IMG/VR virus record: IMGVR_UViG_3300036770_003900
Span: 1-41,089 of that record
DNA from: a virus
Direction: 5' to 3' (one strand)
Length of the DNA stretch: 41,089 nucleotides
The position numbers were made by a program, and so were the translations under genes. The notes under the pieces are model-generated. The model was not told the DNA's origin. It saw nothing but the letters and a program-made list of their open reading frames with translations, and searched no databases. Position 1 is the first letter of the stretch; every line of letters begins with the position of its first letter. This document shows positions 5,286 through 14,600 of this stretch, piece after piece.

Positions 5286-5563
5286 TTGTTTTCAATTTTA
5301 AGTCCACAATATAAATCAAGCCAAGCCATTTGACGTTCAGCTATTTTTGAATAATGGCGATTTTTCTTTTTAATGTGTTTAGCACCCCATTCTCTCCATT
5401 CTTTATTCTGCTCTTCTGTCATGGTGTATTGTGTAAACCATTCATCTGTTCTACCTTCTACATCTTCAAACTTAACGTCATGTCCTGCTATTTCAAACAT
5501 CTTATCGATGAGTTCTTTTAGCAGTTGTTTTTCCTTGTTTACTTTTTGTTCTGCTCGTGTCAT
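5282..5563 (-). CDS. Hypothetical small phage protein
   Basis: A 93-residue charged protein, MTRAEQKVNKEKQLLKELID at the N-terminus and ERQMAWLDLYCGLKIENK at the C-terminus, predicted to be all helices. Its start codon shares a base with the stop of the phosphoesterase gene (5563) and its stop overlaps the next gene, so it is translated together with both. No domain recognised. Confidence 0.7.
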   Translation of the reverse strand: MTRAEQKVNKEKQLLKELIDKMFEIAGHDVKFEDVEGRTDEWFTQYTMTEEQNKEWREWGAKHIKKKNRHYSKIAERQMAWLDLYCGLKIENK

Positions 5564-6300
5564 TATCTTACTGAATTTACTTTGAGTTTATTATCTTGGT
5601 GAACTAAATATTCACCTCTAGTTTCCATTGTATCAATGAAATAGTATTTACCACCAGTGAATTGTTTAGACAGTTCTATACTTAACCTTTTCATCTGTGT
5701 GTGTCCTACAATTTGTATGTAGTCGTTCTTTAATCCTTTAGAATGTCTCTTATTTACACCGATTAGTGATCTGGGTCTAATCCAAATTGGTGTTTGACAT
5801 GCATTATCACCTGTAGGTTCTAATCCATTGAAGTCAAATGCTTTTGGTTTGTGTTTAAATAATTCGTTCAAATCTTCAACAATTGTTTCTTTTGACCAAC
5901 CGTTCTCACCAAACACCTCATCCATAAACACAGGACTTACACCTGCATGTGTAAATAGGTATTTATCAAAGCTATACGCCATTTGTAGATGGTGTCTGTT
6001 CTCATCTATCACTTGGCTTATATTTGGAGCTATTCCAGATTGGTAACCACTGGTTCCTGTATATCCCACTTCTGGGAAGTAGTGATGGTCATGATTACCT
6101 ATGAGCATCACCACTTCCACTTGTGGGTTATCTTCCTTATACTTGATGATTTCTTTGAAATTATGAATTTGTTCTATTCCAGGGATTTCAAATGAGTCAA
6201 AATAGTCTCCTATGAAAATCACCCTATCAGGTTTGTCCTGATGAACAGCTAATTTCCAGAATGACCTACCATGTGTATCTCCAAGGACTATCGTTTTCAT
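5563..6300 (-). CDS. Calcineurin-type metallophosphoesterase
   Basis: A 245-residue two-metal phosphoesterase. All signature blocks of the family are present in order: GDTHGR (7-12), GDYFDS (31-36), GNHDHH (68-73), a histidine in FTHAG (118) and VGHTQ (198-202). These residues ligate two metal ions and the phosphate. This set is typical of PPP-like and symmetrical Ap4A hydrolase-like phosphatases, and the length fits a stand-alone domain. Possible substrates are phosphoproteins, nucleotides or RNA ends; the sequence does not decide. A second, different phosphoesterase is encoded at 30401-31621. Confidence 0.9.
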   Translation of the reverse strand: MKTIVLGDTHGRSFWKLAVHQDKPDRVIFIGDYFDSFEIPGIEQIHNFKEIIKYKEDNPQVEVVMLIGNHDHHYFPEVGYTGTSGYQSGIAPNISQVIDENRHHLQMAYSFDKYLFTHAGVSPVFMDEVFGENGWSKETIVEDLNELFKHKPKAFDFNGLEPTGDNACQTPIWIRPRSLIGVNKRHSKGLKNDYIQIVGHTQMKRLSIELSKQFTGGKYYFIDTMETRGEYLVHQDNKLKVNSVR

Positions 6301-9629: not shown

Positions 9630-9658
9630 GATCTGGTTTTTTTGGTTTTAAATATGAG

Positions 9659-9752
9659 CAGTCAGGACTCGATTCGAACGAGTATGTTACGTCTTACTCA
9701 TAACTGAGATGATGCGTTTCTGTTCAGCGTCTACCAATTCCGCCACCTGACT
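9659..9752 (-). tRNA. tRNA-like gene 2, Leu-type body with an abnormal anticodon region
   Basis: Read leftward: acceptor AGTCAGG with CCTGACT (7 bp, one T-G pair), D arm GCG-GAATTGGTAGA-CGC and T arm ACTCG-TTCGAAT-CGAGT. After the D arm there are 43 nt instead of the 30-35 of a class II tRNA, and the five bases that should start the anticodon stem have no partner. The best hairpin, GTTATG-AGTAAGA-CGTAAC, has a 7-nt loop holding TAA (Leu) but with G instead of the universal U33, and it lies directly before the T arm with about 23 extra nt between it and the D arm. No CCA is encoded. Confidence 0.7.
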
Positions 9753-10111: not shown

Positions 10112-10208
10112 CGTTGGGAGCAGGATTCGAACCTGCATACTATGAGGATTACCCCATTTTACGTTCCTTGTACCTCGGAACAACGTCTACCAATTGCGCC
10201 ATCCCAAC
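10112..10208 (-). tRNA. tRNA-like gene 3, Leu-type body with an abnormal anticodon region
   Basis: Read leftward: acceptor GTTGGGA with TCCCAAC (perfect 7 bp), D arm GCG-CAATTGGTAGA-CGT and T arm GCAGG-TTCGAAT-CCTGC. A 5-bp stem (GTTCC/GGAAC) sits in the anticodon position but encloses a 9-nt loop, GAGGTACAA, which gives no normal anticodon register. A second hairpin, ATGGG-GTAATCC-CTCAT with overlapping pairings, takes the place of a variable arm and is larger than usual. Total 97 nt; no CCA. The specificity cannot be assigned. Confidence 0.7.
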
Positions 10209-12156: not shown

Positions 12157-12468
12157 TTAGCTTGGATAGCAATCTGTTACAACTTGAGGACACTCATTGT
12201 AAATCCACCACTCTGAGCCGTCATATTCTCCTCTTGTAGCCCATGTATTATTATTAAACCATATAGTTCCATATAAATACTGAAGCCCATATCCATCGTC
12301 ATAATCAAAATCAAGACTATTTAGGAAGTCTTGATATTGTTCCTCTGTATATCCAATACGAAGGACTGTCTGTTTAGCTTTAAGATCATCATCCATAACA
12401 GTGATGATGGCACAAATAACGTTTGGACGGCTAGTTACAAAGTCTTCAAATTCTTCTTTTGCGTTCAT
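12157..12468 (-). CDS. Conserved small phage protein (GEYDGSEWW family)
   Basis: A 103-residue acidic protein. Residues about 44-95 (FLNSLDFDYDDGYGLQYLYG, then IWFNNNTWATRGEYDGSEWW) carry a pattern I know from many small phage proteins of Bacteroidota, of unknown function; the last residues are CPQVVTDCYPS. It shares one base with the stop of the lipoprotein gene (12468), and a terminator follows, so the two form a two-gene unit. Confidence 0.75.
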   Translation of the reverse strand: MNAKEEFEDFVTSRPNVICAIITVMDDDLKAKQTVLRIGYTEEQYQDFLNSLDFDYDDGYGLQYLYGTIWFNNNTWATRGEYDGSEWWIYNECPQVVTDCYPS

Positions 12469-12812
12469 TATTCTTGATTTAATATGTCATCTAATTTATT
12501 ACATTCACCATTAGCTATTGTTCCCAATTTACGACCAAAATCATATATTACAACACTATCTTCCTCCATAAACAGTTGAAATTCACTTGATTCTGTAATA
12601 ACTAAGTCTTGATTACGGTTCCATTGTCCTGTAATAAGACCATTAGCTATCTCTTCAGCATAAAAATGTTCATATAAAACACCATTAGCTTGTACATTAA
12701 ATATAGGACGACCCTCATCATCATCCCACAATTCTGTTACAATAACATCATTTTCCTTCAGAGAACATGAAAATGAGGCAAAAACAAACATAATAGCAAA
12801 TAAATACTTCAT
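12468..12812 (-). CDS. Small lipoprotein
   Basis: A 114-residue protein from the ATG at 12812. The N-terminus MKYLFAIMFVFASFSCSLKE is a lipoprotein signal with a lipobox (A-S-F-S-C), so the mature protein begins at C16 and is attached to a host membrane. The mature part is acidic (WDDDEGRPIFNVQANGVLYE). Phage lipoproteins often act in superinfection exclusion; nothing specific shows it here. The upstream in-frame extension to 12962 crosses structured RNA and is not used. The leader is TTTAAAACCAAGTAT. Confidence 0.7.
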   Translation of the reverse strand: MKYLFAIMFVFASFSCSLKENDVIVTELWDDDEGRPIFNVQANGVLYEHFYAEEIANGLITGQWNRNQDLVITESSEFQLFMEEDSVVIYDFGRKLGTIANGECNKLDDILNQE

Positions 12813-12825
12813 ATACTTGGTTTTA

Positions 12826-12888
12826 AATTGGTGACAAAAGAAAAATGCAGGCCTTGCACCTGCTCGGGAGCATATGTAACCTCCAATT
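12826..12888 (-). ncRNA. Structured leader with a T-arm-like hairpin
   Basis: AATTGG (12826-12831) can pair with CCAATT (12883-12888) around a perfect GCAGG/CCTGC hairpin with a 7-nt loop (leftward TGCAAGG) and a GGAG/CTCC hairpin that competes for two bases. Read leftward, the 7-nt loop keeps T, C and A at the positions conserved in tRNA T loops (54, 56, 58), and GTCACCA follows. It could be a decayed tRNA or a tRNA-like element. It lies just upstream of the lipoprotein leader. Confidence 0.4.
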
Positions 12889-12892
12889 GTAT

Positions 12893-13018
12893 AATTCCCC
12901 TCTGCACTCAAAATGTAATACGTGTACGAACACTTTTTCTGAATACTCATGTACGAGAACACGTTATTTTACATATTACATTCTGTCAGCCCTTGGGAAA
13001 GCTGTTTGTGGTGCATTA
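12893..13018 (-). ncRNA. Structured RNA, copy A of a two-member family
   Basis: Stems, in + coordinates: outer TGCAC (12903-12907) with GTGCA (13011-13015); long arm AATGTAATA (12912-12920) with TATTACATT (12974-12982), continued inward by CGTGT/ACACG (12921-12925, 12959-12963); and hairpin CAGC/GCTG (12987-13004) with the 10-nt loop CCTTGGGAAA. Copy B at 13240-13403 has the same order of stems, the same loop and the same flank CCCCTCTGC, but different stem bases that still pair. On the leftward strand the loop TTTCCC could pair with the flank GGGGAA, forming a pseudoknot. Leftward transcription is assumed from the genes on both sides. Confidence 0.65.
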
Positions 13019-13044
13019 AAAGAAAGAGCCCTATAACAGGCTCT
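13017..13044 (-). terminator. Terminator overlapping the stop codon of the preceding gene
   Basis: Read leftward: AGAGCCTGTTATAGGGCTCT then TTCTTTTAAT. The stop codon of the 60-residue gene (13031) is inside the stem. A nearly identical hairpin occurs at 13580-13603, so this terminator is duplicated along with the RNA elements. Confidence 0.7.
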
Positions 13045-13213
13045 CTAAATCAGCTTTTGGAAAATACTTAAGTACATGCTCTTTACTATCAAACGCATCT
13101 CCCGATAACGTATTATCATTAGCAATTAATACATAATATCCATCTTCCCTAAGGAACAAATAAGGATATTGTCTATCATTAGTAATAAATAATACTTTAC
13201 GATACTTTCCCAT
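13031..13213 (-). CDS. Hypothetical small protein between two homologous RNAs
   Basis: A 60-residue protein, MGKYRKVLFITNDRQYPYLF at the N-terminus and EHVLKYFPKADLESLL at the end, probably a small alpha-beta fold. The ATG follows TTTAAATCAATAATT, the shared leader. It is the only sizeable gene within 12.83-13.71 kb and lies exactly between RNA copies A and B. Function unknown. Confidence 0.65.
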   Translation of the reverse strand: MGKYRKVLFITNDRQYPYLFLREDGYYVLIANDNTLSGDAFDSKEHVLKYFPKADLESLL

Positions 13214-13239
13214 AATTATTGATTTAAATGATGAATGAA

Positions 13240-13403
13240 TAATACCCCTCTGCGTTCAGTTGTACACGTAGACGCTCAGCTGCCTGATTGTCTCATGAGA
13301 TACCTGTTATGGTGTGGTTACCAGCCTATCACTATCTGATAACTGTATCTCGTATAAATGTGTGTACAACTGCCTGTCCTTGGGAAACAGGAATGACGCA
13401 TTA
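13240..13403 (-). ncRNA. Structured RNA, copy B of a two-member family
   Basis: Stems, in + coordinates: outer TGCGT (13251-13255) with ACGCA (13396-13400); long arm CAGTTGTACAC (13257-13267) with GTGTACAACTG (13362-13372), a perfect 11 bp, extended inward by GAGATAC/GTATCTC (13297-13303, 13345-13351) and GTTAT/ATAAC (13306-13310, 13339-13343); and hairpin CCTGT/ACAGG (13373-13391) with loop CCTTGGGAA. Compared with copy A, both the outer stem and the hairpin stem have changed on both sides while still pairing. The 5' flank ACCCCTCTGC and the loop are kept. It sits directly upstream of the leader of the 60-residue gene. Confidence 0.65.
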
Positions 13404-13575
13404 CTCCTTTCTGATAACCCTCAGAAAGTCCAAAGAAGGGATTTCTAACAACCGCTAGAAACAAACTCTTAATGTAACACTTATTTGGACCTATGTGGAA
13501 TACCACGCCAAAGCTTCTCTTTATACAGAAGCCCATCATCCAAAGATGTGTTAGTTTGTGTTACATAAGAGCTAT
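13404..13575 (-). ncRNA. Four-way-junction structured RNA
   Basis: In + coordinates: CTCTTAATGTAACAC (13466-13480) pairs with GTGTTACATAAGAG (13558-13571), 14 bp with one bulged base. Inside are three arms: TTTGG/CCAAA with an inner GTGG-AATA-CCAC, GCTTCT/AGAAGC and CATC-ATCCAAA-GATG. Before it lie two perfect hairpins, CTTTCTGA/TCAGAAAG (13407-13428) and TTTCTA/TAGAAA (13442-13461). GTCCAAA (13429-13435) can also pair with TTTGGAC (13484-13490), giving an alternative fold. No credible gene is present. It abuts copy B and may be part of the same transcript. Confidence 0.55.
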
Positions 13576-13578
13576 ATA

Positions 13579-13603
13579 TTAAAAGAGCCCTGTTACAGGC
13601 TCT
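13579..13603 (-). terminator. Terminator hairpin, near copy of the one at 13017-13044
   Basis: AGAG-C-CCTG-TTA-CAGG-CTCT in + orientation (8 bp with a bulged C). Read leftward it is followed by TTTTAAT. It shares its core (AGAGCCTG then GGGCTCT, leftward) with the hairpin at the end of the 60-residue gene. It would end the short transcript of the 17-codon gene and the interlocking helices. Confidence 0.6.
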
Positions 13604-14373: not shown

Positions 14374-14402
14374 AATTTTCGATTTAAATTGTTATGGGGG
14401 GT

Positions 14403-14442
14403 CACCTCGACTCCCCAATTGCAGGTGGGGTAGCGAATTGGG
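14403..14442 (-). promoter_or_regulatory. H-type pseudoknot in the leader of the first leftward gene
   Basis: Two perfect interlocking stems: CCCAATT (14414-14420) with AATTGGG (14436-14442), and CACCT (14403-14407) with AGGTG (14423-14427). Connecting loops are 6, 2 and 8 nt, a geometry that suits an H-type pseudoknot. Read leftward it ends about 30 bases before the ATG at 14373. It may control translation or message stability, like a small riboswitch, but no ligand class is recognised. Confidence 0.55.
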
Positions 14443-14600
14443 ATTAGCCTCCTGTCCCGTGAACATAAAACATTTCCTAATTTCCATGTAATGTCCATGT
14501 AAGATTCTTCTTATGAAGGAATACTGGGGGGCATACCCAGATTTATATTTCTATATAGGGGGGCTTTTATATACCCTTCCATCCCAGAAAAAAAAATTAT

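Follow-up and report, generated by a model that had tools for sequence, protein, structure and literature searches.

Divergent twister-like elements in the leaders of phage genes: candidate ribozymes for the processing of polycistronic messages

Introduction

Two short stretches of common design lie on either side of a 60-residue gene in a viral sequence of 41,089 nucleotides (IMG/VR record IMGVR_UViG_3300036770_003900, positions 1 to 41,089; hereafter the window). An initial annotation, made from the letters alone, described two like RNAs with compensated stems and a shared loop and flank; on re-examination, both coordinates and sequences are as described. What kind of RNA these two copies represent, and what they may do for the virus that carries them, is the question addressed here. 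Matches of the window terminase, at 40.6% to Leptolyngbya phage Lbo-JY46 and at 33.5% to Cellulophaga phage phi17:2, lead us to assign the window to a crass-like phage. Neither the 60-residue gene nor the 114-residue gene on the far side of copy 1 matched a family.

Results

Two folded RNAs on the minus strand

The shared loop, CCTTGGGAA, stands at 12991-12999 and 13378-13386, and the shared flank, CCCCTCTGC, at 12897-12905 and 13245-13253. A window-wide word search returned exact copies of both words from these two sites only; one-mismatch versions of either are not rare in the window. Comparison to shuffled sequences gave z = -3.34 for the minus strand of copy 1 and z = -4.24 for that of copy 2, where none of 200 shuffles was equally stable, as against z = 0.10, and thus no unusual fold, for the plus strand of copy 1. 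Together with the covarying homologues described below, these values bear out the earlier proposal of a selected fold on the leftward strand. The features of both copies are listed in Table 1. The 5-bp stem first described as the outer stem is real and corresponds to P2; it is, however, not the outermost, as a further stem, P1, lies beyond it in the family and is weak or nearly absent in both window copies.

Table 1. Positions of the two elements, their predicted parts and their neighbours in the window.
Feature	Position	Strand	Basis
Copy 1, divergent twister-like ribozyme (predicted)	12893..13020	-	fold z; fold and conserved nucleotides as in homologues
Copy 1 predicted cleavage site U(13018)^A(13017)	13017..13018	-	register with twister U-A site (PMC6154101) and RF03160 consensus
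Copy 1 P2 5' strand UGCAC, pairs with 12903-12907	13011..13015	-	sequence; P2 covariation C-G/U-A
Copy 1 P2 3' strand GUGCA	12903..12907	-	sequence; covariation
Copy 1 P4 hairpin CAGC-UUUCCCAAGG-GCUG, T1 CCC at 12995-12997	12987..13004	-	sequence, fold
Copy 1 P5 arm, variable	12909..12985	-	fold; P5 pairs covary family-wide
Copy 1 L1 3' strand GAGGG	12898..12902	-	word search, family descriptor, PMC6154101, RF03160 consensus
Copy 1 L1: putative catalytic G (O. sativa G45); A; T1 GGG	12902; 12901; 12898-12900	-	
Copy 2, divergent twister-like ribozyme (predicted)	13238..13405	-	fold z; picked up by descriptor
Copy 2 predicted cleavage site U(13403)^A(13402)	13402..13403	-	register with twister
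Copy 2 P2 5' strand UGCGU, pairs with 13251-13255 ACGCA	13396..13400	-	sequence, descriptor, covariation
Copy 2 P2 3' strand ACGCA	13251..13255	-	sequence, descriptor, covariation
Copy 2 P4 hairpin CCUGU-UUCCCAAGG-ACAGG, T1 CCC at 13382-13384	13373..13391	-	sequence, fold
Copy 2 P5 arm, variable	13257..13372	-	folds
Copy 2 L1 3' strand GAGGG, G13250 putative catalytic G	13246..13250	-	word search, descriptor
60-residue gene, ATG 32 nt past copy 2, stop just ahead of copy 1	13031..13213	-	ORF
114-residue lipoprotein-like gene, downstream of copy 1	12468..12812	-	ORF
Terminator-like hairpin GAGCC..GGCUC and U-rich tract, directly 5' of copy 1 predicted cleavage site	13022..13047	-	sequence
Hairpin CUUUCUGA..UCAGAAAG, directly 5' of copy 2 predicted cleavage site	13407..13428	-	sequence, folds

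The elements belong to a large family

The pattern TTCCCAAGG-N72-102-GCAGAGGGG, run on IMG/VR, returned 92 stretches, and the majority of them show the complete fold. A shorter 5' pattern and loop-variant patterns yielded more homologues; all counts that derive from them refer to the matches listed and are lower bounds. In further searches the three loop letters that take part in the pseudoknot T1 (below) were varied deliberately. A descriptor with no requirement for UAA or L2 gave 74 placements, and a descriptor blind to the 3' flank gave 237 placements among the 531 loci listed, into which 64 scattered matches from a pattern scan of bacterial genomes had been put. Among these 531 loci there are at least 219 members with a well-paired T1. 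The fold, with covariation in stems and pseudoknot, recurs in at least 187 fetched contigs besides the window, far more than chance would give, so that the covarying homologues sought since the initial annotation are present in number.

Some contigs carry several copies, and 37 of the 187 encode a related terminase. Searching GenBank phages by nucleotide sequence, first with a 1.7 kb query and also with a 44-nt consensus, gave no significant relatives and so no cultured example of the family; in the parts searched of the genomes of two cultured relatives, Cellulophaga phi17:2 and Leptolyngbya Lbo-JY46, there are three short matches to the core pattern.

Covariation defines the fold and a loop-flank pseudoknot

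Members share the order P1, U^AA (the caret marks the predicted cut), P2, a P4 hairpin with loop UUCCCAAGG, a long variable P5, P2', GAGGG and P1', which can be read as P1-TAATGC(A/G)(C/T)CA..P4-TTCCCAAGG-P4'-P5-A-(P2')-GAGGG-P1'. UAA precedes P2 in 71 of 74 placements although the descriptor did not require it; likewise GA directly follows P2' in 220 of the 237 placements among the matches listed, with no requirement on the 3' flank.

A pairing of loop with flank had been predicted at the outset, and natural double changes back it. The pseudoknot T1 joins the P4-loop triplet that precedes AAG to the triplet that follows GA; among the matches listed it occurs as CCC:GGG (146), CAC:GTG (41), CCA:TGG (29) and TCC:GGA (1). 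Where a loop other than CCC is followed by GA, T1 pairs in 71 of 72 cases among the matches listed, with pairing not required. The main combinations co-occur with differing P1, P4 and P5 letters. In order to quantify covariation we used 103 sequences of less than 88% identity: a 4-bp T1 (U-R plus three) is paired in 403 of 412 cells (shuffle maximum 374) and P1, which was not required, in 283 of 412 (shuffle maximum 209), the sequences being related, so that these counts are not independent events. When the partners of T1 or P1 are shifted by 1-3 positions, pairing falls in both. P2 and P4, required by the descriptor, show many pair types.

P1 measures 0 bp in 27 of 219 members among the matches listed. 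The P5 arm is found in every member, ranges from 17 to more than 160 nt, and its pairs covary. For a second tertiary contact, T2, the invariant C after P2 can pair with an invariant loop G; there is no covariation at this pair, and the second canonical pair is replaced. Some elements that differ in their P1 or P4 letters (L023 and L080; L013 and L093) nonetheless carry near-identical P5 inserts, which looks as though P5 were a module passed between them.

The conserved core matches that of twister

Twister ribozymes cleave at a U-A site, the role of general base falling to a conserved G at the foot of P2; in the env22 twister the contacts are U33-A50 and A34-A49, and the optional stems P0, P3 and P5 occur in 21, 78 and ~1% of examples (PMC6154101). 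Twister remains active when P1 is deleted (PMC5408937). The window family has in common with type P1 twister (RF03160; O. sativa 4OJI, env22 4RGE) the stems P1, P2 and P4 in that order, the UAA and GA of L1, with UAA opposite GAGGG, the loop UCCCAAG and the T1 pseudoknot between L4 and L1. The register is also the same, placing a predicted U-A cleavage site and a G after P2'. The initial view, that no known RNA family has this loop and flank, is therefore not supported: UCCCAAG, GAGGG, the opposing UAA and the stem order are all those of the RF03160 consensus, ccuuUAAcgCcGCC...GcCGGUCCCAAGCCCGggUAAAgGcgGAGGGaagg.

As a positive control a canonical-twister pattern was run on IMG/VR and found about 40 in other phage contigs, for example CCGCTC-TAATGCAGCCTATGCCGGTCCCAAGCCCGGAACAATGCAGAGGG-GAGCAA. 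The window family repeats their letters in P2 (TGCA/TGCA), in UAA/GAGGG and in UCCCAAG. Differences lie elsewhere. The GCC that follows P2 in twister is (C/U)CA in the window family, and the loop GUCCCAAGC is UUCCCAAGG, its outer letters changed from G..C to U..G while the UCCCAAG core is kept; P2 is one pair longer, P5 is always there and P3 is missing.

These differences are reflected in the comparison to Rfam. At E<=10, RF03160 matches neither the window copies nor any of the relatives that were tested, and no family member tested against RF03160 exceeds its gathering score. We attribute the failure of the model to the differing conserved positions and the constant presence of P5. The model is most fairly tried on natural copies with a very short P5. 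For one of these (L060:6361-6426) the top Rfam hit is RF03160, over the full length, with 20.2 bits and E 0.023; three further compact copies (L179, L105 and L430) have no RF03160 match. For canonical phage twisters in the eight contigs tested the model gives 48-68 bits, and most of them also fall under its 67.2-bit cut-off. The link that Rfam provides is thus no more than suggestive, and the case for twister rests on the shared core and T1. Judged from its sequences, the family is best filed as a divergent variant of twister that Rfam does not cover; under the definition that Rfam uses it is not a confirmed twister. Neither the family nor any other twister variant of crass-like phages came up in the literature searched, mainly that openly readable.

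Searched against Rfam at gathering and loose thresholds, the window gave tRNA and chance matches only. The window carries two tRNA-like genes on the minus strand (9658-9752 and 10112-10208) that are unusually long, at 95 and 97 nt. The theta ribozymes of gut phages (PMC10879173) are likewise small, self-cleaving and proposed to process phage transcripts; however, they have an HDV-like fold and cleave beside tRNAs, whereas the window family has another stem order and a same-strand tRNA within 400 nt in just 4 of 219 members among the matches listed. Both membership of the HDV-like theta class and a theta-like role in tRNA processing were rejected on these grounds. The pistol ribozyme (RF02679) is phage-associated and pseudoknotted, as is the window family, but differs in fold and core and does not match the window copies. 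One contig with a twister-like element also holds a pistol ribozyme above the Rfam cut-off (L035:2731-2790, minus strand).

The elements precede unrelated genes at a preferred distance

Gene context was taken from simple ORF calls. The copies stand in intergenic leaders, ahead of unrelated genes and often 30-36 nt from an ATG. Among the matches listed, the next gene shares the strand of the element in 183 cases and has the opposite one in 21, and in 133 of 219 the genes on both sides are co-directional with the element. The distance to the start codon has a preferred range: in 39 of 181 distinct downstream stretches among the matches listed the ATG falls 30-39 nt after GAGGG, the next largest bin holding 11. 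Placement of canonical phage twisters is similar (ATG at 20-39 nt in 16 of 38). In the window the distance is 32 nt for copy 2 and 85 nt for copy 1. The downstream proteins among the matches listed, 124 in all, form 73 clusters, which shows that the family is specific to no gene and does not mark a single regulated one; for the same reason a gene-specific riboswitch is not favoured.

Sequence just ahead of the predicted cut (50 nt) is more strongly folded (median -9.0 kcal/mol) than random stretches (-5.8 kcal/mol), and in both window copies a hairpin stands at this place. A motif CCT(A/G)A(A/G)CA..AAACTG(C/T)T, which resembles an H-type pseudoknot and has apparently compensated stems, stands directly 5' of the element in L013, L023, L028, L033, L043 and others (also L094:6505-6545); of its 63 occurrences in the loci listed, 18 are just before an element and 10 before poly-T.

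Proposed function and alternative explanations

Both window copies are probably divergent type-P1(+P5) twister ribozymes that would cut polycistronic phage mRNA at U^A. Against this reading stand the weak P1 of the window copies, the differing conserved letters, a T2 that does not covary, the missing RF03160 matches and the rarity of P5 among twisters (PMC6154101). The leader of a phage gene, once transcribed, would fold as P1-U^AA-P2-P4-P5-P2'-GA(T1)-P1', with the P4 loop paired to the strand after P2' (T1), and would be cleaved at the U^A step (13018^13017 and 13403^13402). The upstream message would then carry a 2',3'-cyclic-phosphate end just past a hairpin; the downstream message would start with a 5'-OH and the folded ribozyme, in copy 2 some 30 nt ahead of the start codon. 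In this way a polycistronic transcript from one promoter could become separate messages, each with defined ends.

Of the alternatives, the one that fares best is that the twister fold is kept without cleavage, as a stable 5' leader that protects the message or controls its translation, or as a ligand-sensing aptamer; we nevertheless consider it improbable. It would accommodate an ATG some 30 nt downstream, copies in which P1 is weak or absent, and strict conservation at positions foreign to twister (L2 CA, loop UU..GG, a single A before P2'), the last partly imposed by the search patterns. A non-catalytic leader, however, need not keep the A after the predicted cleavage site or the G-A after P2', both of which are practically invariant, and most members show covariation of P1 on either side of the scissile site; for an aptamer, the downstream genes have no common pathway.

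Alternatively, an unrelated ribozyme class may have converged on the twister core, as the obligatory long P5, the different T2 letters and the lack of an Rfam match for most copies might imply. Such an origin is very unlikely, given that canonical phage twisters have identical nucleotides at nine or more core positions, with identical spacing, T1 topology and TGCA P2, all of which would have had to arise by convergence.

That the copies encode a trans-acting phage small RNA is scarcely credible: a strong fold, several copies in some contigs and a terminator-like hairpin after copy 1 would suit it, but the preferred start-codon distance, the strand coupling to the downstream gene and a variable P5 with no conserved seed outside the catalytic core speak against it. 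The initial annotation had left cis control and trans action both open. Given the location just ahead of the start codons of many unrelated genes we favour the former, as processing of mRNA in cis, and set the latter aside.

To our knowledge, what twisters do in bacteria and phages has been unsettled ever since their discovery. A large family of twister variants at a preferred distance from start codons makes one role testable, namely the splitting of phage transcripts into messages, and the natural CAC:GTG and CCA:TGG forms of T1 are ready compensatory mutants. The changed T2 letters and the obligatory P5 indicate how far a twister core can drift. A broader reading is that crass-like phages use dedicated, multicopy, altered twisters as general operon cutters, that P5 is an exchangeable module which tunes or regulates cutting, and that the 5'-OH, ribozyme-capped mRNA resists host decay that starts at 5' phosphates; taken as a whole we regard this as speculative and rather unlikely.

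Further structures in the window

Between a terminator-like hairpin and copy 2 lies another strongly folded stretch (13404-13565, minus strand) with the closing stem CTCTTATGTAACAC..GTGTTACATTAAGAG; the interval 13230-13600 has a fold z of -5.45. The stretch could be an RNA in its own right, with a 3' end generated by copy 2. Directly after copy 1 (12840-12885, minus strand) is an element GGAGG..TGCTCCCnAGCAGGTGCAAnGCCTGCATTT, with no Rfam match above chance, that is kept right after the ribozyme-like elements of L176 and L185. A calcineurin-like phosphoesterase at 5563-6300 (minus strand), which weakly matches a phage RNA ligase family, is a possible handler of RNA ends. Finally, G-rich inverted repeats (TGGGGGGTCACCTCGACTCCCCAATTGCAGGTGGGG..) at 14394-14456 occupy the gap between divergent gene blocks and are possibly a further leader or promoter structure.
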